Assembly (NCBI RefSeq): GCF_004363235.1
Contig: NZ_SNYW01000007.1
Coordinates: 62,001-126,000 of the forward strand
DNA: 64,000 nucleotides
Origin: Dongia mobilis
GTDB lineage: Bacteria; Pseudomonadota; Alphaproteobacteria; Dongiales; Dongiaceae
Reading direction: 5' to 3'
Shown: one piece after another, positions 2,071-24,301 of the stretch
Numbering within the stretch: position 1 is the first letter of the stretch
Layout of the letters: each line of letters starts with the position of its first letter
Made by a program: the position numbers and the translations under genes
Notes under the pieces: generated by a model
What the model saw: the letters and a program-made list of their open reading frames with translations, nothing else
Databases searched by the model: none
What the model was told of the DNA's origin: nothing

Positions 2071-3579
2071 CTATTCCGCCTTGTCGGCGATTTCGCCTAT
2101 TTCGGTCAGGCCATAGCGGCGGAGCTTCAGATAGAGGCTCTGCCGGCTGAGCCCGAGAAGTTCGGCGGCAGAGGCTCGGTTGTCGCCAGTCAGCATGAGC
2201 GCCGCCTCAATGCACATCCGTTCGATGACGTCGGTCGATTCGCGGACCAGTTCCTTAAGCGGCACACGACCGACCAGTTCGGTAAGCTGTTCCATGGATC
2301 GAGGCATGATGGCGACACTTATGTCTCCTGCCGCCTTGCCGGGCGAACTCAGCCTACGGGAGACGTCCCGAATGGAGAAACCGAAGGTCGTGCGATTGCC
2401 GTCACGGATTGATACCGCAGAGATCTCTACCTCAGGATTGGAGCCGTACTCCCCGCGCGCGGTCGTGAAGAACAGCCGGACCGTACCATGTTTAGCGAGA
2501 TTGCTGAGCAATACGCTGACATCAACGCCCGAGCGCCCGAGCCAGCGTTCCAAGTGTTCCCCGCGCGCCTGCTCCTCGGTCGCCAGTTGGGCGATTTCGA
2601 GGAATGCAGCGTTGGTGACCAGGATGCATCCCGCCTCGTCAGTAAGGACAAAGCCGTCGGGCAGTGCCTCCACAACTTCGGCTAGTTTCCGCTGCGGGTC
2701 AGGTGCCGGTCCGGCTTCGCCTGACTTAGGTGCCAGCCGCAGCAGCAGGATGGCGTTGTTGTCCTGTCGAAGCAGAGCGCAGGAAGCCACGATGTCCCGC
2801 TTCGCATGCAGAGGATGCAGTGTCAGTTCCTCCGTACGTCCTGTCGCCTCTACCCGCGTAAGCAGGCTTTCGAGCGCCTGTGCGCTGTTTTCGTCAAGAT
2901 GCGCGGTGAGCGGTTTCCCGGACAACTGAGTCGCCCCGTCGCCGAGCAGGTGGGCGGCGCTTGGATTTGCCTCAATCACGGCGCGGGTAGCTGGATCGAG
3001 CATCAGGATGGCGTCCGGCGCGGTGCGGAACAGGATGCGATAGCGTGCCTCCATCTGGCGAAGGCGCACATAGTCGCGCTCCATCGATTGCTGGGCCTGC
3101 AACAAATTCTGCTGCAGGGCCGCCATGGCGCGCTGGTCGCGACCGAAGGCGATGATGCGCTCCGGCGCACCAAGCCGGATTGTCGCATATAACAATGGTA
3201 GGCCAGATGTTCCACCGATGGCGTGATTGACTTGGCGCCAACGCGATGGCTGGCCGGAGCCGGCATCCGCGAGCAACTGGGAGACCTTTGGCCGGCTCTC
3301 GGTCGTAACCATGTCGAGCCAGGGACGACCGATCCAGGAATCGGTGCTGCCGGCCAGCAGCGTTGCGTCCGAACAGGCGATATCGCGCACGATACCTTGA
3401 TCGTCGAGGATGAGGAGAATGTCGGAGGCGGCGGACGCCAGCGCCAGGGCCGAGTCCGAATCAAGTGCTCCGAGCGTCTCGCCGGGGGAGAGGGTTTGTG
3501 TCACGGCAGATGAGATCCTCCATGCGTCGAATCTCCCCCCAGCATCTTTATTGGTTTGTGGTTCGGTTGAGCTCAGCAC
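2071..3579 (-). CDS. ppsR: PpsR/CrtJ transcriptional repressor of photosynthesis genes (copy 1)
   Basis: PpsR represses bch, crt and puc genes under oxygen or light. The 502-residue protein shows the expected order: an N-terminal PAS-like domain (about 45-145), a coiled Q-linker (about 150-175), two PAS domains (about 178-285 and 300-415), and a FIS-type helix-turn-helix at the C-terminus (TGDNRASAAELLGLSRQSLY, about residues 463-482). Cysteines are at 69, 267, 318 and 456. C456 starts the helix-turn-helix region (MCIEAALMLTGDN) at the place of the redox cysteine known from PpsR/CrtJ, so redox control is plausible. Its start overlaps the end of aerR by seven bases (ATGCTGA), giving the classical aerR-ppsR pair. 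Compare the cysteine-free second copy at 20750-22111. Confidence 0.95.
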   Translation of the reverse strand: MLSSTEPQTNKDAGGRFDAWRISSAVTQTLSPGETLGALDSDSALALASAASDILLILDDQGIVRDIACSDATLLAGSTDSWIGRPWLDMVTTESRPKVSQLLADAGSGQPSRWRQVNHAIGGTSGLPLLYATIRLGAPERIIAFGRDQRAMAALQQNLLQAQQSMERDYVRLRQMEARYRILFRTAPDAILMLDPATRAVIEANPSAAHLLGDGATQLSGKPLTAHLDENSAQALESLLTRVEATGRTEELTLHPLHAKRDIVASCALLRQDNNAILLLRLAPKSGEAGPAPDPQRKLAEVVEALPDGFVLTDEAGCILVTNAAFLEIAQLATEEQARGEHLERWLGRSGVDVSVLLSNLAKHGTVRLFFTTARGEYGSNPEVEISAVSIRDGNRTTFGFSIRDVSRRLSSPGKAAGDISVAIMPRSMEQLTELVGRVPLKELVRESTDVIERMCIEAALMLTGDNRASAAELLGLSRQSLYLKLRRYGLTEIGEIADKAE

Positions 3580-4469
3580 TTTAATCCCAGCAGTCCCAAA
3601 ATGTCTTCGGCACGGTCGACGGCTTGCCGTCCGTCAGTCGCCATGGCATCGGCGCCGATCAGGCCGGCAAGGTCATGATCGTCGACGAAGGCGCTTCCCC
3701 CGACGAGGATGCCAATGGATTTGTTGAGCGAGTTTCGCCGCACGGCGTGAATTTGCGCGGCCAAAGCTTCCTTGCGTGTGAGCGAACTCAGCGAGAACCC
3801 GGCAATCGAAAATGACTGGTGGCTTACCAGCGCCACGACGTCCTGCACTGCATGTGATGAGTCGCACCACACTTCCCAGCCGGCCCGGCGGAAGAACTCC
3901 GCCACCATGGTGACGCCGAAGAAATGCTGCTCACCCGGCGCCGGTAGGAGAAGAATGCGTTGCCTGCAACCGGATTCGTCGAGTTCTCCCATGAATTCAG
4001 GACTGAAGCGGCGCAGCAACATTTGCAGCCTTCCGACGCCGATCGTTACCTGGGTGAAGTCGATGAAATCCGCAACCCACATCTCACCCAGCCGCCGGGC
4101 AACGGGAGTCAGCAGGCCAAGGTAGACCTCTTCTACATTGACGCCCGCCTTCAACATTGCGGCGATATAGGCTGCGGCGTCCTCGGATTCGTCGCCCAGG
4201 ATCAGTGTCGTCATCTCGTTGACATGCGCATCCGAGATATTGTGCGGAGCGACGATTGAGATGCCTTGCGCGTATTGTTCGTTATCTCGTCGCGCGAGGA
4301 CGAGGCGCGGAATGATCTCGGTTTCGATCGCCCGGACGAGGCGGGCGACGCCCTGCAGGGGGCCCTGGTCGACTGCCTGGCGCTTGCCGGGCTCCCAGCC
4401 GAGCGAGCGTGGAAGACGCGCCTGTTCGCTGCAGAAACCATCCGCGACCTGCTGGGTCGTGTCAGCCAT
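3573..4469 (-). CDS. aerR: AerR/PpaA cobalamin-binding antirepressor of PpsR
   Basis: AerR/PpaA proteins bind vitamin B12 and counteract PpsR/CrtJ. I use the ATG at 4469 (298 residues) rather than the longest frame (to 4505), because GGGGAGG sits just before it. The middle (about 95-165) matches the helical cap of B12-binding proteins, with a segment around VYLGLLTPVARRLGEMWVAD. The C-terminal half (about 170-295) is a Rossmann-like B12 domain with EQHFFG (His182, Gly185) in the place of the DxHxxG motif, and a late glycine loop (ILVGGSAF). Position directly upstream of ppsR and divergent from bchF is classical. The aspartate of the motif is replaced by Glu, as expected for the divergent SCHIC-type domain. 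Confidence 0.9.
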   Translation of the reverse strand: MADTTQQVADGFCSEQARLPRSLGWEPGKRQAVDQGPLQGVARLVRAIETEIIPRLVLARRDNEQYAQGISIVAPHNISDAHVNEMTTLILGDESEDAAAYIAAMLKAGVNVEEVYLGLLTPVARRLGEMWVADFIDFTQVTIGVGRLQMLLRRFSPEFMGELDESGCRQRILLLPAPGEQHFFGVTMVAEFFRRAGWEVWCDSSHAVQDVVALVSHQSFSIAGFSLSSLTRKEALAAQIHAVRRNSLNKSIGILVGGSAFVDDHDLAGLIGADAMATDGRQAVDRAEDILGLLGLKC

Positions 4470-4826
4470 AGGTTCCTCCCCTGAACGAGATGACCTTGGG
4501 CCCATTGTCCTGGAAACCGGAGCGTTAAGGCGGCTGGAACTCTGCGACTTGACGGACGGCGATACTCCAGACTGATCCGAATTCGGGCTCTTATTGACCC
4601 CACAACCTTATGCGCTGACAAAGTGACTGTCAATTTCATGTTACGTAAAAAAAACTTGACACATTGAACTGTCAATTCTAGCGTGACACACAAGGGCCCG
4701 AGACAAGCACTCAGCATAGAGGTCCGCGATAGTCGTCCTTAAGTTTCAATTGGTTAATCCCTGAACCGCGCCATTCGCACGGGCTCCAGGCGGTACCGAG
4801 AAGCACAGACAGGGGGCTCTCATCGC
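4470..4826. promoter_or_regulatory. Divergent aerR/bchF control region with repeated TGACA/TGTCA words
   Basis: This 357-base gap separates the minus-strand aerR-ppsR-bchG unit from the plus-strand bchF superoperon. It holds TGACA-N7-TGTCA (4616-4632), TTGACA-N8-TGTCAA (4656-4675) and TGTCA-N9-TGACA (4670-4688). It also has two near matches to the PpsR/CrtJ consensus TGT-N12-ACA: 4628-4645 ends in ACG and 4644-4661 begins with CGT. No perfect TGT-N12-ACA occurs. A possible bchF promoter is TTGACA (4656-4661), 17 bases, TAGCGT (4679-4684), with its -10 inside the TGTCA-N9-TGACA dyad. On the minus strand TTGACA at 4675-4670 and at 4633-4628 could serve aerR. Binding by PpsR is inferred from context. 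I see nothing specific in 4700-4826. Confidence 0.6.
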
Positions 4827-12895: not shown

Positions 12896-13593
12896 TGACC
12901 AGCGCCACCTACATCGCGCGGCGGGGCGAGCTGCAGACCTATTTCGACCGGACTGCGGTCGATGCCTGGTCGCGCCTTACCTCCGACGCGCCGGTCAGCC
13001 GGATCCGCGCCACGGTGCGGGCGGGCCGCGAGGCCATGCGGACCAACCTGCTGGCCTGGCTGCCGCAAGACCTGACGGGCCGCCGGCTGCTCGATGCCGG
13101 CTGCGGCACAGGCGCCCTCGCCGTCGAGGCGGGGCATCGTGGGGCGCAGGTGACCGCTATCGACCTTTCGCCCACCCTTACCAAACTTGCACGCGAGCGG
13201 CTGCCGGCGGAACTCGATGGCCGCATCGAGTTCCGCGTCGGCGATATGCTCGACCCGGCACACGGTATCTTCGACCATGCGGTGGCAATGGATTCGCTCA
13301 TCCACTACCGCGCGCCCGACATGGTGCGGGCACTGGCCTCCCTGGCGCAGCGCGTCGAGCACTCGATCGCCTTCACTTTTGCGCCACGTACACCGGCGCT
13401 CTCGGTCATGCATGCTGTGGGTCGACTGTTTCCACGCGGCAACCGGGCCCCGGCAATCGAGCCAGTCGGTCCGGTTGCATTGCAACAGCTGTTGGCTGCC
13501 GATCCGGCGCTTGCCGGTTGGCGCGTCAATCGTATCCAGCGCGTCACCACTGGGTTCTACATGTCGCAAGGCGTGGAGCTGGTGCGGTCATGA
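12895..13593 (+). CDS. bchM: Mg-protoporphyrin IX O-methyltransferase
   Basis: BchM methylates the C13 propionate of Mg-protoporphyrin IX with S-adenosylmethionine, giving the substrate of the cyclase AcsF. I use the ATG at 12895, which overlaps the bchL stop (TGATG); the frame is open further upstream but only as a shadow of bchL. The 232-residue protein has the SAM-binding glycine motif LLDAGCGTGALAVE near residues 62-75 and the acidic turn VTAIDLSPTL near residues 85-95, followed by the C-terminal BchM-type region ending GFYMSQGVELVRS. Its end overlaps lhaA by four bases. Confidence 0.95.
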
Positions 13594-15020
13594 AGCGGCT
13601 GGACCACATTGCCGCACGGGGCTGGCTCCACTTGGCGCCGCAATTCCTCCCCTTCGCCGATGCGGCGAGCCGCGAACTGCCGCTTGGCCGCCTGCTGCGC
13701 CTGTCCCTGTTCCAGGTTTCGGTCGGCATGGCCGTAGTGCTGCTCAATGGCACCCTGAACCGCGTCATGATCCTGGAGATGGCGGTTCCGGCCTGGCTGG
13801 TGAGCGTGATGGTGGCCCTGCCGCTTCTTTTCGCGCCCTTCCGCGCGCTGATCGGCCATCGCTCCGACATGCACCGGTCGCTGCTTGGCTGGCGGCGGGT
13901 ACCCTATATCTGGATGGGTACGTTGCTGCAATTCGGCGGCCTGGCGATCATGCCCTTCGCGTTGATCGTGCTGTCCGGTGACACGCATGGCCCGGCTTTT
14001 GTCGGTCACGCCGGCGCGGCGTTGGCCTTCCTCCTTGTTGGCGTTGGTCTGCATACGACGCAAACAGCCGGCCTCGCGTTGGCGACCGACCTGGCTCCCC
14101 CCGGGTCGCGCCCACGCGTGGTCGCGCTGCTCTACGTGATGCTGCTCGCCGGCATGGTGCTGGCGTCGCTGGTGTTCGGTGCGCTGCTCGAGCAGTTCAG
14201 CCAGATGCGCCTGATCCAGGTGATTCAGGGTGCCGCCCTCGCCACCATGCTGCTGAACATCGCGGCGTTGTGGAAGCAGGAGGCGCGTAATCCTGTGCTG
14301 ACCGACCCGGCACGGCCGCGCCAGGATTTCGCCATGGCGTGGCGGCGGTTCATCGCGCAGCCGCGGGCGGCCCGTTTCCTGGTCACGGTCGGACTTGGCA
14401 CCGCCGCCTTCAGCATGCAGGACATCTTGCTGGAGCCGTATGGCGGCGAGATCCTGCATATGGCGGTGGGCAGCACCACGATGCTGACCGCAATACTCGC
14501 CGGAGGCACACTGATCGGTTTTGCAATCGCCGCACGCCATCTGTCCCTGGGCGGTGATCCGTTTCGCATCGCGGCATTCGGCGCGCTCGTCGGACTTGCT
14601 GCCTTTCCCGCAGTGATGATTGCCGCGCCGGCCAGTTCCCTGCTCCTGTTCCTGACCGGTACCGGTCTCATCGGGCTCGGCGGCGGGCTGTTCTCGGTCA
14701 GCACATTGACGGCCGCCATGGCGCTCGACAATGGCGACGGAAGCGGTCTGGCGCTGGGTGCCTGGGGGGCCGTGCAGGCCAGCGCCGCCGGTCTTGCGGT
14801 AGCCGCAGGCGGCATATTGCGGGATGTGGCGAATGTTCTCGCCGATCGGGGCCTGCTTGGCCCGGCACTGACGGGGCGCTCGGTCGGCTACGGATTTGTC
14901 TATCAGGTCGAGATCGTTTTGCTGTTCGCGGCCCTCGTCGCCATCGGACCGTTGGTACGCACAGCGGGAGGCCGGCTGCGGTCGACCGCGAAATTCGGCT
15001 TGGCGGAGTTTCCCGGTTAG
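13590..15020 (+). CDS. lhaA: LhaA/PucC-family light-harvesting 1 assembly protein
   Basis: LhaA is a twelve-helix membrane protein that helps assemble light-harvesting complex 1 around the reaction centre. The start used is the ATG at 13590, overlapping the bchM stop (ATGA), giving 476 residues. The N-terminus carries LFQVSVGMAVVLLNGTLNRV, and a later loop holds SDMHRSLLGWRRVPYIWMGT, both typical of the PUCC family. It shares the TLNRVM motif with the partial protein at 1-1162. The position between bchM and puhA is the classical one for lhaA. puhA follows after 30 bases with its own GGAGGT site. Confidence 0.93.
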   Translation: MKRLDHIAARGWLHLAPQFLPFADAASRELPLGRLLRLSLFQVSVGMAVVLLNGTLNRVMILEMAVPAWLVSVMVALPLLFAPFRALIGHRSDMHRSLLGWRRVPYIWMGTLLQFGGLAIMPFALIVLSGDTHGPAFVGHAGAALAFLLVGVGLHTTQTAGLALATDLAPPGSRPRVVALLYVMLLAGMVLASLVFGALLEQFSQMRLIQVIQGAALATMLLNIAALWKQEARNPVLTDPARPRQDFAMAWRRFIAQPRAARFLVTVGLGTAAFSMQDILLEPYGGEILHMAVGSTTMLTAILAGGTLIGFAIAARHLSLGGDPFRIAAFGALVGLAAFPAVMIAAPASSLLLFLTGTGLIGLGGGLFSVSTLTAAMALDNGDGSGLALGAWGAVQASAAGLAVAAGGILRDVANVLADRGLLGPALTGRSVGYGFVYQVEIVLLFAALVAIGPLVRTAGGRLRSTAKFGLAEFPG

Positions 15021-18312: not shown

Positions 18313-19254
18313 ATGTGGGACATCGCCCTCCCCGTGCTCTATGCGGCCTTCGTGTGGTGGTTTGCCACCGGGGTGATCCTGCTGCTGGTCGGTCGTCCGC
18401 GTTGGACCTATGGCTGGAGCATGGCGGGGGCCACTGTCCTGCTCATGGTCGCGCTGGGCGGCGTGACGATTTCCGGCGCAATGACGGATGAACGTGGCGC
18501 CTATCTCGGCTTCACCGCCGCCATCCTGGCTTGGGGCTGGTTGGAAATGGCCTTTCTGATGGGCTTCGTGACCGGCCGGCGACCGCCAGTGCGGTCGGAA
18601 CCTGCGGGCAGTTGGCGTCATTTTGTCGATGCCATCGCCGCGATCATCGATCACGAATTGTCGCTTATCGCCGGTGCGGTCGTTGTGATTGGCCTGAGTT
18701 GGGGCCAGCCCAATCAGGTCGCGGCGTGGACCTTCCTGGCACTGTGGGGGATGCGCCAGAGCGCCAAGCTCAACCTCCATTTCGGCGTGCGGAACCTGAA
18801 CGACGAATTGTTGCCGCCGCATCTCCAGCATCTGCGGATCTATCTGCGGCGGCGGACGATGAACCCGCTGTTTCCCGTTTCCATTGCGATCGGTACAGCA
18901 ATCTGCGCCCTGGTCGCGGCGCGGGCCGTAGGGCCCGCCAGCGATTCGTTCGAAGCGGTCGGCCTCACCCTGCTCGCGACGATGCTGGCGCTTGGCGTGT
19001 TCGAACATTGGATGATGATCCTGCCGCTTCCGGTCAACGACCTGTGGCGCTGGAGCCTGCGCGGACGCGGCAGCAACATCGAGCCTGCGTCAAGTGGCGC
19101 AGTCAGTGACATGCTGTCGGTGTCGGAATCGGCGCGTGTCCATGTCTGTTCCACTCCGCCCGCCTGGCAGGCAGCTCGCCGTCGCACGCGCTCCGACGCA
19201 CCGATCTTTGCCGGGCGAACCCGCCGACCCTTCCGCGCCCCTTGGAGGCCATGA
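18313..19254 (+). CDS. puhE: Photosynthetic complex assembly protein PuhE
   Basis: PuhE is a polytopic membrane protein that modulates bacteriochlorophyll production and reaction centre assembly. It has about seven hydrophobic segments within residues 5-240 and the family-typical [20 protein letters not shown] and [11 protein letters not shown]. At 313 residues it is about 45 longer than many homologues: residues after 265 form an Arg/Ser/Pro-rich tail without obvious conservation. It begins six bases after acsF, and its TGA overlaps the hemA start (ATGATG). Confidence 0.92.
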
Positions 19255-20465
19255 TGAACTACGAAGCCTTTTTCCGTCGTCATTTGGAAGAATTGCAGCG
19301 CGAGGGGCGCTATCGGGTCTTCGCCGATCTGGAACGGCAGGCCGGGAACTTCCCATGTGCCACCAATCACCACGCTGACGGCCGGCACGAGGTCGCCGTC
19401 TGGTGCTCGAACGACTATCTCGGCATGGGCCAGCATCCCGACGTGTTGGCAGCCATGCATGAGGCGATCGACCGCTGCGGGGCCGGGGCAGGGGGAACCC
19501 GCAACATCTCGGGCACCAACCACTACCATGTCCTGCTGGAACGCGAACTGGCGGACCTGCACGCCAAGGAATCTGCGCTGCTCTTTACCTCGGGCTATGT
19601 CTCGAACTGGGCGACACTGGCAACGCTGGCCGCACGCCTGCCCGGCTGCGTGGTACTTTCGGACGAGGCCAATCATGCTTCCATGATCGAGGGTATCCGC
19701 CACAGCCGTGCCGAGAAGCTCATCTTCGCACATAACGATCCGGAAGACCTGGCGCGCAAGCTGGCGCGCCTGGATCCGGCGCGGCCCAAACTGGTTGCCT
19801 TCGAATCGGTATATTCGATGGATGGCGACATTGCGCCGATAGCCGAACTCTGCGACGTGGCGGACGCGCACAATGCGATGACCTATCTTGACGAGGTCCA
19901 TGCCGTCGGCCTCTATGGTCCACGCGGCGGCGGCATCGCCGAACGTGAGGGTGTCAGTCATCGCCTCACAGTCATCGAAGGAACGCTGGCCAAGGCGTTT
20001 GGCGTGCTGGGCGGCTACATCGCCGGCTCGGCGGCCTTGTGCGACTTCGTGCGCAGCAACGCTTCCGGTTTCATCTTCACCACGGCGCTGCCGCCGGCTG
20101 TCGCCGCGGGTGCTCTCGCCAGCGTCCGCCATCTCAAGGCGAGCGGTGCCGAACGCCGGCAGCACCAGGCGATCGTGGCCAAGGTGCGTGCGCGGCTGAA
20201 GCAGGCCGGGCTGCCGGTCCTGGAGAATGCCAGCCACATCGTTCCGGTCATCGTCGGCGACCCGGTCCGGTGCAAGGCCATCTGCGATGCGCTGCTCGAG
20301 CGGCACGGCATCTACGTTCAGCCGATCAATTATCCGACCGTGCCGCGCGGCACCGAGCGGCTGCGGGTGACACCGTCCCCGCTCCACGGGGATGCGCAGA
20401 TCGATCGTTTCATCGAGTCGCTCAGCGCCGTGTGGGCTGAGTTCGGCCTGCGACGGGCGGCTTGA
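19254..20465 (+). CDS. hemA: 5-aminolevulinate synthase
   Basis: HemA condenses glycine and succinyl-CoA to 5-aminolevulinate, the first step of the tetrapyrrole pathway in alphaproteobacteria. The ATG at 19254 is preferred to the one at 19251, because GGAGG then sits five bases upstream and the start overlaps the puhE stop. The 403-residue protein shows the PLP fold type I features: [12 protein letters not shown], the lysine region [17 protein letters not shown], and the glycine-rich [17 protein letters not shown]. Standing last in the PGC operon, it may be a copy dedicated to bacteriochlorophyll, tying precursor supply to pigment demand. Confidence 0.97.
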
Positions 20466-20749
20466 TCTGCCCGGCAGGGTCTTTGTGGGCAAATGCTGCG
20501 GAGTTAGGTTCATGAACCTAGGAAAATTATCAATTCCTTGAAAACGTGACAATTTTCCCCACGATTGTTCGGTTGAAGTGACGTCCATCCGCGTCAAGAT
20601 TCCGGCAAAGAGTCGCCCTGCGGCATTAACGAAGTTTTCCACTGTCAAGGTTTCGGGTAGTGTGCTGCGCAATTGCCAGGGCTCGGTCGGACCGGTTCCG
20701 CCCGAGCGATGGTCGCTATGGCCTGACTGATTTTACAAAGCAGAGCTGA
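20466..20749. promoter_or_regulatory. ppsR2 upstream region with a 16-base palindrome and an 8-base inverted repeat
   Basis: This 284-base gap breaks the otherwise continuous PGC operon. It holds a perfect palindrome TAGGTTCATGAACCTA (20505-20520), immediately followed by the inverted repeat GGAAAATT (20521-20528) and AATTTTCC (20551-20558). A near match to TGT-N12-ACA lies at 20566-20583 (ending ACG). The region is AT-richer than its neighbours. A stop codon directly precedes the ppsR2 ATG in frame. This is a likely promoter and operator of the ppsR2-bphP unit. No clear rho-independent terminator for the upstream operon is visible. Confidence 0.55.
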
Positions 20750-22111
20750 ATGAGCATCGGCCGACCAGACGTCACGCTGCTTCTCGACAAGGATGGCATC
20801 ATTCGCGATGTCACCTTGTCCGATGCAGAACCGAAAGATCGGGCGCTCGACCTGATCGGGCAGCCGTGGGTGGACACGGTCGCCGATCTGGGCGGCGACA
20901 AGGTGCGGTCTATGGTCGAGGACGCGCGTGCCAGCCGCGTTTCTGCCTTCCGCCAAGTGACGCAGCGCCTGCCTGGCGGCCGCGAAATCCTGCTGGAATT
21001 CACCACGGTACGGCTCGAAGGCTCGGCCGGCTTCATCGCCGTGGGGCGCAGCCTCCAGGCCGTTGCCGATCTGCAGTCTAAGCTCATCGCCGCACAGCAG
21101 GCCATGGAGCGCGACTACTGGAAGCTGCGCCAGGTCGAATCCCGCTACCGCATTCTCTTCGATGCCTCGGCAGAGGCGGTTGTCCTGATCCGGGCCATCG
21201 ACCTGCGCATCGTCGAGGCCAATCCCGCTGCCCTCCGCGCACTCGGTCTTGCCGCGCAGAAGGGCAAGGCAATTGCCGGACGGGAGTTGCTGCCGGAACT
21301 CGCCGCCGAGGATCGCGAATCGTTCCAGGCGGCGCTGGCGCAGGCCCGAGAACAGGGCAGGGCACCGGGGATCCTGCTGCATCTCGGGCGCGAGGCACAG
21401 CCCTGGATCGTGCGCGTATCCCTGCTGACCGCGGAAGCCGGCCCACTTTATATGCTGCAATTCGCACCAACGGGTGTAGCCGTCAACGGTGGCGATCTTG
21501 GCGAGGCGGTATCGACCGAGGACCTGATCGAGCGCGTCCCGGACGGCTTCGTCGTCATTGATGAAGACGGCATTGTGGTGCGCGCCAATCGCGCCTTCCT
21601 CGATCTGGTGCAGGTCGGCGGTCGTGGCACCGTTGCCGGCGAGCGGCTCAGCCGCTGGCTTGGCCGGCCGGGTGCGGATCTCACCGTGCTCCTCTCGACC
21701 GTGCGCCAGCATGGTGTCGTGCGCATGTTCTCGACCACGCTGCACGGCGAACTCGGCCTGGACACCGAGATCGAGATATCCGCCGTCGGCGCCTACGATC
21801 CGTCGCCCAAATTCATCGGCGTGCTGATCCGCGACGTCAGCCGGCGCCTCAGCCAGACCCCGGTCGAGCGGGGGCCGGACGTCATCCATCTGCCGGCGGC
21901 AGAGGAAATCGGTCGCAGCACCCTGCGCAAGCTGGTGAAACAGACCGTGCAGATGGTCGAACGTCACTATGTCGAGGCGGCGCTGCGCATGACGGGGGAC
22001 AATCGCACCGCTGCCGCGGAACTGCTGGGCCTCAGCCGGCAGAATCTCTATGCCAAGCTCGACCGTTACGGACTGACGGATCGCGCCGACGCCAGCGATC
22101 GCGACGCATAG
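20750..22111 (+). CDS. ppsR2: Second PpsR-type repressor, cysteine-free and N-terminally shorter
   Basis: This PpsR homologue has the same order of PAS (about 5-95), Q-linker helix (about 105-122), PAS (about 124-235), PAS (about 248-360) and FIS-type helix-turn-helix (TGDNRTAAAELLGLSRQNLY, about residues 415-434). It lacks roughly the first 45 residues of the copy at 2071-3579, and an in-frame TGA just before its ATG rules out a longer start. It contains no cysteine at all: the helix-turn-helix cysteine is replaced by Tyr407 (HYVEAALRMTGDN). Redox control by thiols is therefore not possible. It precedes a bacteriophytochrome by 18 bases, the arrangement of ppsR2 with bphP in Rhodopseudomonas and Bradyrhizobium, where the phytochrome antagonises PpsR2. 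The symbol follows that analogy. Confidence 0.92.
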   Translation: MSIGRPDVTLLLDKDGIIRDVTLSDAEPKDRALDLIGQPWVDTVADLGGDKVRSMVEDARASRVSAFRQVTQRLPGGREILLEFTTVRLEGSAGFIAVGRSLQAVADLQSKLIAAQQAMERDYWKLRQVESRYRILFDASAEAVVLIRAIDLRIVEANPAALRALGLAAQKGKAIAGRELLPELAAEDRESFQAALAQAREQGRAPGILLHLGREAQPWIVRVSLLTAEAGPLYMLQFAPTGVAVNGGDLGEAVSTEDLIERVPDGFVVIDEDGIVVRANRAFLDLVQVGGRGTVAGERLSRWLGRPGADLTVLLSTVRQHGVVRMFSTTLHGELGLDTEIEISAVGAYDPSPKFIGVLIRDVSRRLSQTPVERGPDVIHLPAAEEIGRSTLRKLVKQTVQMVERHYVEAALRMTGDNRTAAAELLGLSRQNLYAKLDRYGLTDRADASDRDA

Positions 22112-22129
22112 AGAAACGGGATTGCGGAT

Positions 22130-24301
22130 TTGGTCGCCTCAACCCTCCTCAATCCCGCCTTCGGGCAAGCGAACCTCTCCAACTGCGAACGGGAGCAGAT
22201 CCACCTTGCCGGGTCGATCCAGCCGCATGGTGCGCTTCTTCTGGTGCGCGAGCCGGACCTGGAGATCGTGCAGGTCAGCGCCAATGCTGCCGAATTCCTC
22301 GGCCTCGCCGAATCCCTGCTGGGCCTGCAGCTCAGCCAGATCAAGGGCGATCTTGCCAGTCGTATCCGAACGCATCTCGGTGTGACCCTGCAGACCATTG
22401 CAACGGCGGTGCGCTGCCGCATCGGCGAGCCGGCGGTCGAGTTCGACGCCCTGCTGCACCGGCCTGTTGGGGGTGGGGTAATCATCGAGTTGGAGCGCGC
22501 CGGGCCGAAAGTGGACGTGACGCACCAGATCGAAGGTGCGTTGCGGGCGATTCTAAGCGCGGCGACGCTGCAGTCACTGGCCGAGGAGGCGGCGGAGATC
22601 TTTCGCGCCTATACGGGCTATGATCGCGTCATGGTCTACCGTTTCGACGAGGTAGGCCATGGCGAGGTGTTTTCCGAGCGCCGCCGGCCCGATCTCGAGG
22701 CCTTTCTGGGCAACCGCTATCCGGCATCGGACATTCCACAGATCGCGCGCCGGCTCTACGAGCGCAATCGCGTGCGCTTGATTGGCGACATCAACTATGC
22801 GCCGGTGCCGCTGACACCCCGGCATTCGCCGATGACCGGCCAGGACCTGGACATGTCCTACTGCTTCCTGCGCAGCATGTCGCCGATCCATGTGCAGTAT
22901 CTCAAGAACATGGGCGTTGCGGCGACGCTGGTTGCTTCGCTCGTGGTTGGTGGCCGGCTTTGGGGCTTGATCTCCTGTCATCACTACTCACCGCGGCTGA
23001 TCCACTACGAGGCGCGCGGCGTGTGCGAGGTGCTCGCGGAGGCCATCAGTACCCGCATCGCCGCACTCGAGGGCTTCGTCCAGGCGCAGGCCACGCTTTC
23101 CGTCCGCCGGATCGAGCAGCGGCTGGTCAAGGCCATTGCCGACGATGGCGACTGGCAGGGTGCATTGTTCGACCAGCCGCAATCCCTGCTCGAACCCCTC
23201 GGGGCCAGCGGAGCGGCGCTGCTTTTCGAAGGCCAGGTGCGGGCGGCCGGCGACGTGCCCGGCACGTCTCACCTGCGCGAGATGGGGCGGTGGCTGGACC
23301 AGCAGCCGCGCGCCGGCGTGTTTGCGACTGCCTCGCTCGGTGCCGAGAATCCAGAGTTCGAGGAAATCCAGGCGGTGGCAAGCGGCCTGCTGGCGGTGCC
23401 GCTTTCCAACTCGCCAGGCGAGTATCTGCTCTGGTTTCGACCCGAACAGGTGCGGACGGTTACCTGGGGCGGCAATCCCTTCAAGCCGATGGTGGTCGGT
23501 GACGATCCGGCGGATCTGTCGCCGCGTCGCTCGTTCGCGCAGTGGCATCAGCTGGTCGAAGGAACATCGGAACCGTGGAGCCAGTCGGACTATTCGGTTG
23601 GCCGCCAGGTTGGCGAGATTCTCTCTGATGTCGTGCTGCAGTTCCGCTCGGTGCGAACGCTGATCGTGCAGGAGCAACTGGCCCAGGTCAGCCAGCAGGT
23701 GCGCCAGTCGGAGCATCCGGTGATCGTCGCCGACGGTGCCGGCCGCATCCTGGTCGCCAACGAGGCCTTCGACCGGCTGCTACAGTCGGCCCATCCGCAT
23801 TTCGATACGATCGAGGATCTGGCGCCGTACTTTGCCGAACCCTCGAAGGTGCGACAGGATCTGCGAGAACTGCTGACGCAGCGGCGCAGCTGGCGTACCG
23901 AGCTGCTGCTCAATGCGCGTGGCGGGCAGCCGCGTGCGCTCATGGTCCGCGCCGATCCGGTCTTTGCGGCAGCAGACCGGGTGCTCGGTTTTGTGTTCCT
24001 CTTTGCCGACCTGACCGAGCGCAAGGCGGCCGAGGCCGCGCGGCGGCGGTTCCAGCAGGAGACCATCGAGCGGCATCGAAACATGTCGCAGCCGCTCGAT
24101 ACGCGCGTCGACCTGATCTATAGGAACCTGATGTCATCTCTGGTTGGCAACGCCCAGATAGCCGCCCTGGAGATCACCGACGGGCTTGATCTGGACCGTG
24201 TTCCGGAAATGCTGGACAGCGTCCAATCATCGGTGGCGCGGTCGGCCGAATTGCTGGAGCACCTGTTGTGGTATACAAGCCGGGGCGGCAGCGGCGATTA
24301 G
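22130..24301 (+). CDS. bphP: Bacteriophytochrome with PAS-helix (non-kinase) output
   Basis: This red/far-red photoreceptor has PAS (about 20-125), GAF (about 140-315), PHY (about 325-510), a second PAS (about 525-645) and a C-terminal two-helix region (about 650-723). The biliverdin-attaching Cys19 (LSNCEREQIH) is present, as are PASDIP (198-203), His254, His284 (ISCHHYSPR) and the PHY tongue motif PRRSF (465-469). There is no H-box followed by an ATP-binding domain, so it is not a conventional histidine kinase. The layout resembles R. palustris BphP1, which acts on PpsR2 by direct binding. A TTG at 22130 is the only plausible start after the in-frame stop. No heme oxygenase gene is seen nearby. 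Confidence 0.93.
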   Translation: MVASTLLNPAFGQANLSNCEREQIHLAGSIQPHGALLLVREPDLEIVQVSANAAEFLGLAESLLGLQLSQIKGDLASRIRTHLGVTLQTIATAVRCRIGEPAVEFDALLHRPVGGGVIIELERAGPKVDVTHQIEGALRAILSAATLQSLAEEAAEIFRAYTGYDRVMVYRFDEVGHGEVFSERRRPDLEAFLGNRYPASDIPQIARRLYERNRVRLIGDINYAPVPLTPRHSPMTGQDLDMSYCFLRSMSPIHVQYLKNMGVAATLVASLVVGGRLWGLISCHHYSPRLIHYEARGVCEVLAEAISTRIAALEGFVQAQATLSVRRIEQRLVKAIADDGDWQGALFDQPQSLLEPLGASGAALLFEGQVRAAGDVPGTSHLREMGRWLDQQPRAGVFATASLGAENPEFEEIQAVASGLLAVPLSNSPGEYLLWFRPEQVRTVTWGGNPFKPMVVGDDPADLSPRRSFAQWHQLVEGTSEPWSQSDYSVGRQVGEILSDVVLQFRSVRTLIVQEQLAQVSQQVRQSEHPVIVADGAGRILVANEAFDRLLQSAHPHFDTIEDLAPYFAEPSKVRQDLRELLTQRRSWRTELLLNARGGQPRALMVRADPVFAAADRVLGFVFLFADLTERKAAEAARRRFQQETIERHRNMSQPLDTRVDLIYRNLMSSLVGNAQIAALEITDGLDLDRVPEMLDSVQSSVARSAELLEHLLWYTSRGGSGD

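Follow-up and report, generated by a model that had tools for sequence, protein, structure and literature searches.

Two genes for PpsR proteins lie in the 64,000-nucleotide stretch of Dongia mobilis DNA analysed here (contig NZ_SNYW01000007.1, positions 62,001 to 126,000; the whole stretch is called the window), and one of them, ppsR2, encodes a protein without cysteine and stands next to a bacteriophytochrome gene, bphP. The question that this locus raises is whether the genome divides its control between a redox/B12 branch, formed by PpsR1 and an AerR-like protein, and a purely light branch, formed by PpsR2 and BphP and blinded to oxygen by its loss of thiols, as an earlier note on this DNA proposed. 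We consider it likely that PpsR2 and BphP make up the known PpsR2-BphP far-red switch and that PpsR1, with the aerR-like gene, supplies the redox/B12 input. The features on which the argument turns are listed here (+, forward strand; -, reverse strand).

20750 to 22111, +: ppsR2, 453 aa without cysteine; N-terminal PAS, Q-linker helix, PAS1, PAS2 and a Fis-type helix-turn-helix (HTH)
21947 to 22069, +: HTH_8 domain of PpsR2, residues 400-440 (Pfam scan)
21968 to 21970, +: codon of PpsR2 Tyr407, in the column of PpsR1 Cys456
22130 to 24301, +: bphP, type-3 bacteriophytochrome PAS-GAF-PHY-PAS9-HOS, 723 aa, TTG start
24029 to 24298, +: HOS (two-helix output) region of BphP, residues 634-723, placed by conservation; domain name from PMC6899989
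2071 to 3579, -: ppsR1, 502 aa, HTH Cys456 (codon 2212-2214)
3573 to 4505, -: aerR-like B12-binding protein, overlapping the start of ppsR1

The earlier note was right about the anatomy of PpsR2: none of its 453 residues is a cysteine, and in two alignments Tyr407 stands opposite PpsR1 Cys456, the HTH cysteine of the CrtJ/PpsR redox repressors being present in PpsR1 and absent from PpsR2. In the column of the second redox cysteine (Cys249/251), placed via the alignment with 4hh2, both window proteins have Leu; PpsR1 has four cysteines, at residues 69, 267, 318 and 456. At a cysteine frequency of 0.97%, taken from 14 hand-picked window genes, 4.4 cysteines are expected in a protein of this length and the chance of none is P = 0.012; another of those 14 genes, at 13518-15020, is cysteine-free as well. 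Domains, alignment, predicted model and fold match all place PpsR2 in the PpsR architecture N-Q-PAS1-PAS2-HTH, and the HTH is intact by Pfam. Its solved sequence relatives are R. sphaeroides PpsR constructs only (3 distinct chains, E up to 0.001), and R. sphaeroides PpsR 4hh2 is also the top fold match of the AlphaFold model, which has a mean pLDDT of 79.7 and a pTM of 0.34, the latter leaving the arrangement of the domains unsure.

The note had also put the N-terminus of PpsR2 about 45 residues short, and the alignment bears this out with a difference of 46, the column of PpsR2 residue 2 being preceded by 47 residues in PpsR1 and by 1 in PpsR2. By sequence comparison this is a rule of the PpsR2 clade described below and no truncation, since a median of 4 residues precedes that column in the clade versus 33 in the remaining PpsRs (groups formed by BLAST score, with two rows misplaced; L081 and L216, which that score sorted wrongly, were reassigned via the tree). 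A TGA stands immediately 5' of the ATG, and therefore the reading frame cannot extend further upstream, and the predicted model shows a complete N-terminal PAS domain. A truncated or mis-started ppsR2 is ruled out by that stop codon, the complete domain and the clade-wide short N-terminus.

PpsR relatives were gathered from genome contigs, 80 of 114 such relatives being kept, and from genomes of the class, of the phylum and of the family to which the R. pentothenatexigens locus L030 belongs. After removal of frames with a core below 320 aa, an open 3' end or identical last 250 residues, 293 PpsR frames gave 220 distinct proteins; partial matches in genomes G414 and G441 and one match in G937 were left out. 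In some of the genome searches only about four or five candidates were scored per genome, and second PpsR copies may have been missed. A FastTree of the 220 proteins, built with the trait column removed, puts the window PpsR2 inside a single PpsR2 clade, which has 61 members and a support of 100, and the same clade returns in a quick IQ-TREE as 23 rows among 95 representatives, again with 100. By this placement the window PpsR2 is an ordinary member of its clade in a new host. A scan of viral contigs found no relative.

In the window bphP lies directly downstream of ppsR2 after a gap of 18 bases. A Pfam scan of the protein reads PAS_2-GAF-PHY-PAS and detects no kinase domain, and its best PDB match is 4gw9, which is RpBphP1 without the HOS region (PMC6899989). 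A BphP frame follows ppsR2 in 56 of the 61 clade loci, a count that rises to 57 because the L022 ppsR2 frame runs into bphP. Among the full-length BphP partners, the window's included, Cys19 is kept in 55 of 55 and Asp201, His254 and PRRSF in 54 of 55, and the HOS region is conserved. Identities between BphPs and between their PpsR2 neighbours correlate (Pearson 0.80, Spearman 0.63, over 1485 non-independent pairs), as would be expected from co-inheritance. The one departure in the pocket is Imhoffiella purpurea (L019:9373-11460), whose BphP stands next to PpsR2 and keeps Cys19 while Asp201, His254, His284 and His285 are lost. No BphP was found downstream, within the fetched stretch, at L031 and at the three Thiodictyon loci L018, L020 and L021, where PpsR2 has the column Tyr; the L021 sequence ends 1.0 kb beyond ppsR2.

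Scoring the cysteine column across the clade, much as the earlier note suggested for PpsR2 homologues beside bphP, gives Tyr in 56 of the 61 clade members, Cys in 4 and His in 1. The other 159 PpsRs have Cys (103), Phe (31), Ser (24) or Tyr (1). Cysteine is missing from the whole aligned core in 28 of 61 clade members versus 3 of 159 elsewhere. The Tyr is 92% conserved in the clade versus 66% on average across 445 columns, a quarter of which are equally conserved, and on sequence grounds a loss of the cysteine by drift alone is not favoured. In the midpoint-rooted tree the Tyr clade and the Phe group (together 98) sit inside Cys-bearing rows, so that replacement of a Cys is favoured, with a polarity that depends on this assumed root. 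The notion that PpsR2 never had a cysteine arose from other HTH_8 domains, in which the column holds Cys in 0 of 32 and Leu in 27 (32 of 35 other loci matched), and is disfavoured by the tree. The four Cys members (L032, L202, L034 and L036) are nested within the clade by FastTree, which suggests regain, a point that the tree of representatives leaves open. A role for the Tyr as a BphP contact is not supported, in that Q-PAS1 without the HTH binds BphP1 (PMC13058837); an HTH-HOS contact is modelled in PMC6899989.

Of the 61 genomes with PpsR2, 56 yielded a full-length PpsR1 (G418 and G437 had one match only, and the extra matches of G414, G441 and G502 were partial or dropped), and its column holds Cys in 33, Tyr in 1 and Ser in 22, the Ser cases all coming from the G436 family and hence not being independent. 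Those 22 genomes join a PpsR1 with Ser to a PpsR2 with Tyr and have the redox cysteine in neither copy.

The interpretation of a light-only PpsR2 beside a redox PpsR1 is already published and is not new. Bradyrhizobium PpsR2 is described as a presumably light-dedicated regulator with an HTH without such a cysteine, and R. palustris PpsR2 likewise lacks the HTH cysteine (PMC4452267). A wild-strain PpsR2 is reported to be under light control alone, with light and redox divided between two PpsRs (PMC6899989); Thiocapsa, too, has ppsR2 upstream of bphP (PMC5362033), and Bradyrhizobium clusters contain ppsR2 and bphP (PMC10569730). A cysteine in strain CGA009 is reported as R428C (PMC6899989). In Rhodopseudomonas L030 (464 aa from MTTKPVH) residue 407 occupies the redox column and residue 428 is Leu; judged from L030 rather than from the CGA009 sequence, that cysteine may be off the redox column. 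By analogy with these systems, the window PpsR2 would repress photosynthesis promoters by binding them with or without oxygen, and far-red light would activate BphP, presumably through a biliverdin chromophore, whereupon BphP would bind PpsR2 and PpsR2 would leave the DNA. The redox/B12 input would be carried by PpsR1, through its HTH Cys456, and the overlapping aerR-like gene.

Further features of the window, between aerR and bchF and upstream of ppsR2, are these.

4506 to 4826, no strand: divergent aerR/bchF region with five TGTCA/TGACA half-sites, at 4616, 4628, 4657, 4670 and 4684
20466 to 20749, +: region upstream of ppsR2 with two half-sites, at 20547 and 20643
19242 to 20465, +: hemA-like PLP enzyme upstream of ppsR2, the name hemA being an interpretation

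ppsR1 is flanked by a gene of the UbiA family, read as bchG, and by the B12-binding gene taken as aerR, with bchF, nitrogenase-like and Mg-chelatase genes beyond. The half-site cluster between aerR and bchF (4616-4688) includes the inverted pair TTGACA-N8-TGTCAA and is an enrichment, 5 against 0.76 expected (probability 0.0005, one of two regions tested), although this probability is optimistic because the motif was picked after viewing that region. In other loci, exact TGTN12ACA sites occur in this region in a minority of those listed, for example TGTCAAAGAAAATTGACA in L106. By eye, an inverted repeat GGAAAATT-N22-AATTTTCC can be seen upstream of ppsR2 at window positions 20521-20558.

Several observations weigh against the proposed division of labour. 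Upstream of ppsR2 the half-sites do not significantly exceed expectation (2 versus 0.5, 0.085), and across the window TGTN12ACA, the classical operator, shows no enrichment (4 sites versus 5.54 expected). Four of the 61 clade members have the column Cys and yet keep BphP, while PpsR1 is without the HTH Cys in 23 of the 56 genomes holding both copies. The C436A PpsR of Rubrivivax still represses aerobically (PMC4452267), and an absent cysteine is therefore no proof of an absent redox response. A further group with neither Cys nor Tyr is found in the Gemmatimonadota.

27 Gemmatimonadota PpsRs with column Phe: L040-L048, L050-L053, L055-L063, L066, L069, L079, L081, L083

No BphP was found beside these 27 in the fetched stretch, their genomes not having been searched elsewhere, and every Phe protein without a BphP neighbour belongs to this group. 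Expression of photosynthesis genes in Gemmatimonas phototrophica is described as unaffected by oxygen despite the presence of ppsR (PMC11406998), a paper in whose main text the word "cysteine" does not occur; the column Phe would fit this lack of oxygen control. Taken together, the Ser and Tyr of PpsR1, the Gemmatimonadota Phe and the Rubrivivax mutant make the column suggestive rather than decisive, and on the sequences compared it does not cleanly separate redox from light control. The proposal of the earlier note thus survives in part: a PpsR2-BphP light branch beside a Cys-bearing PpsR1 and an AerR-like protein is the likeliest arrangement and matches the published PpsR2 systems, whereas the step from thiol loss to oxygen blindness finds no support in the 23 of 56 PpsR1 proteins without Cys, the Gemmatimonadota or Rubrivivax. 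That PpsR2 is oxygen-blind because it is thiol-free is plausible but unproven.

The alternative that survives best, which we nevertheless think unlikely, is that the two PpsRs assemble into mixed oligomers at operators common to both, BphP reaching PpsR1-bound promoters via PpsR2. The HTH recognition regions of the two window proteins are near-identical, LLGLSRQ(S/N)LYxKLxRY, and BphP-linked PpsRs at six other loci have a weakened HTH.

L034:7992-9329: weakened-HTH PpsR
L036:7878-9323: weakened-HTH PpsR
L071:13340-14971: weakened-HTH PpsR
L074:13340-14971: weakened-HTH PpsR
L213:10008-11594: weakened-HTH PpsR
L214:5863-7329: weakened-HTH PpsR

L034 and L036 belong to the PpsR2 clade and the other four to the Phe group; L034, L036, L071 and L074 are betaproteobacterial. 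Against a PpsR HTH profile the six score 21.6-39.0 bits versus at least 85.8 in the other 214, the proteins from which that profile was itself built; with a profile made without the six and without the PpsR2 clade they score 17.3-36.1 bits and the other 59 clade members at least 65.5. At all six loci there is a BphP with its pocket residues and a second PpsR that has the column Cys and an HTH of at least 100.7 bits. Copies with a weakened HTH would need a DNA-binding partner, and from their sequences it is possible that they are light-gated adaptors or decoys. On the other side, Pfam HTH_8 (cut-off 22 bits) leaves only four of the six below threshold, with no match in L034 and L036 and 16.4 and 16.7 bits in L213 and L214; it still accepts L071 (33.8 bits) and L074 (34.7 bits), which makes mixed oligomers less likely. 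The window PpsR2, moreover, has an intact HTH and is only about 40% identical to PpsR1. We would hold it slightly more doubtful still that a BphP-controlled PpsR2 joins PpsR1 on common operators here while elsewhere the partner of BphP no longer binds DNA and has become a light-gated adaptor of PpsR1. Among the matches listed, which were open papers only, none treats weakened-HTH BphP-linked PpsRs by its title, and this lead is more novel than the PpsR2-BphP finding itself.

A second alternative, that PpsR2 senses oxygen without cysteine, for instance via a bound tetrapyrrole, we regard as improbable. The aerobic repression by Rubrivivax C436A speaks for it, as does a title in the reference list of PMC4452267 that calls PpsR heme-sensing, but the PpsR2 relatives in the literature are portrayed as regulators under light control alone (PMC4452267, PMC6899989). 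The far-red switch proposed above is preferred to both.

The host itself is unexpected. Among 17 genomes of its order, only this one has PpsR or the reaction-centre family PF00124, and the photosynthesis cluster was either acquired here or lost in the other 16. An inactive ppsR2-bphP pair, merely carried along with a laterally acquired cluster, is very improbable, for although this isolated distribution and the want of exact operator enrichment could be read that way, the frames are open, the HTH is intact, the BphP pocket and HOS residues are kept, the gene order is that of the relatives, and half-sites are enriched at aerR/bchF, if by a motif picked after looking. The PpsR2-BphP switch is now placed in the lone reaction-centre bearer of those 17 genomes, and what was known from a few genera can be stated for the whole clade with its exceptions numbered, 56 of the 61 members having Tyr and 4 having Cys. 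The role of the redox cysteine could be tested on natural variants, namely the Cys exceptions, the genomes whose PpsR1 has Ser and the Phe-bearing Gemmatimonadota, and the weakened-HTH copies linked to BphP raise the question of whether the light branch may act through PpsR1.

Comparison with known systems shows how much of the window arrangement is shared. CrtJ of Rhodobacter capsulatus and PpsR of R. sphaeroides, each present as one copy, share the N-Q-PAS1-PAS2-HTH architecture and the fold of the window PpsR2. Their redox control uses the HTH Cys420/424 with Cys249 (PMC5362033, PMC4452267); the window PpsR2 has neither and PpsR1 lacks the second. Bradyrhizobium ORS278 (Jaubert 2004, via PMC4452267 and PMC5362033) has the same ppsR2-bphP order, a PpsR2 without HTH Cys and a second, Cys-bearing PpsR1, the window coming from another genome and another taxonomic order. 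Upstream of ppsR2, hemA is present in the window and in 11 related loci (at 0.9 kb or less in ten, 3.3 kb in L005), whereas the loci of the G436 family have ppsR1-bchG there and hemA was not found in the fetched stretch. With RpPpsR2-RpBphP1 of Rhodopseudomonas palustris the window shares a type 3 BphP with PAS9-HOS (PMC6899989), 4gw9 being its best PDB match. In the HTH column, PpsR1 carries Ser in the L030 and L212 Rhodopseudomonas genomes and Cys in the window, and PpsR2 of the two Rhodopseudomonas loci L022 and L030 has the column Tyr, as does the window PpsR2.

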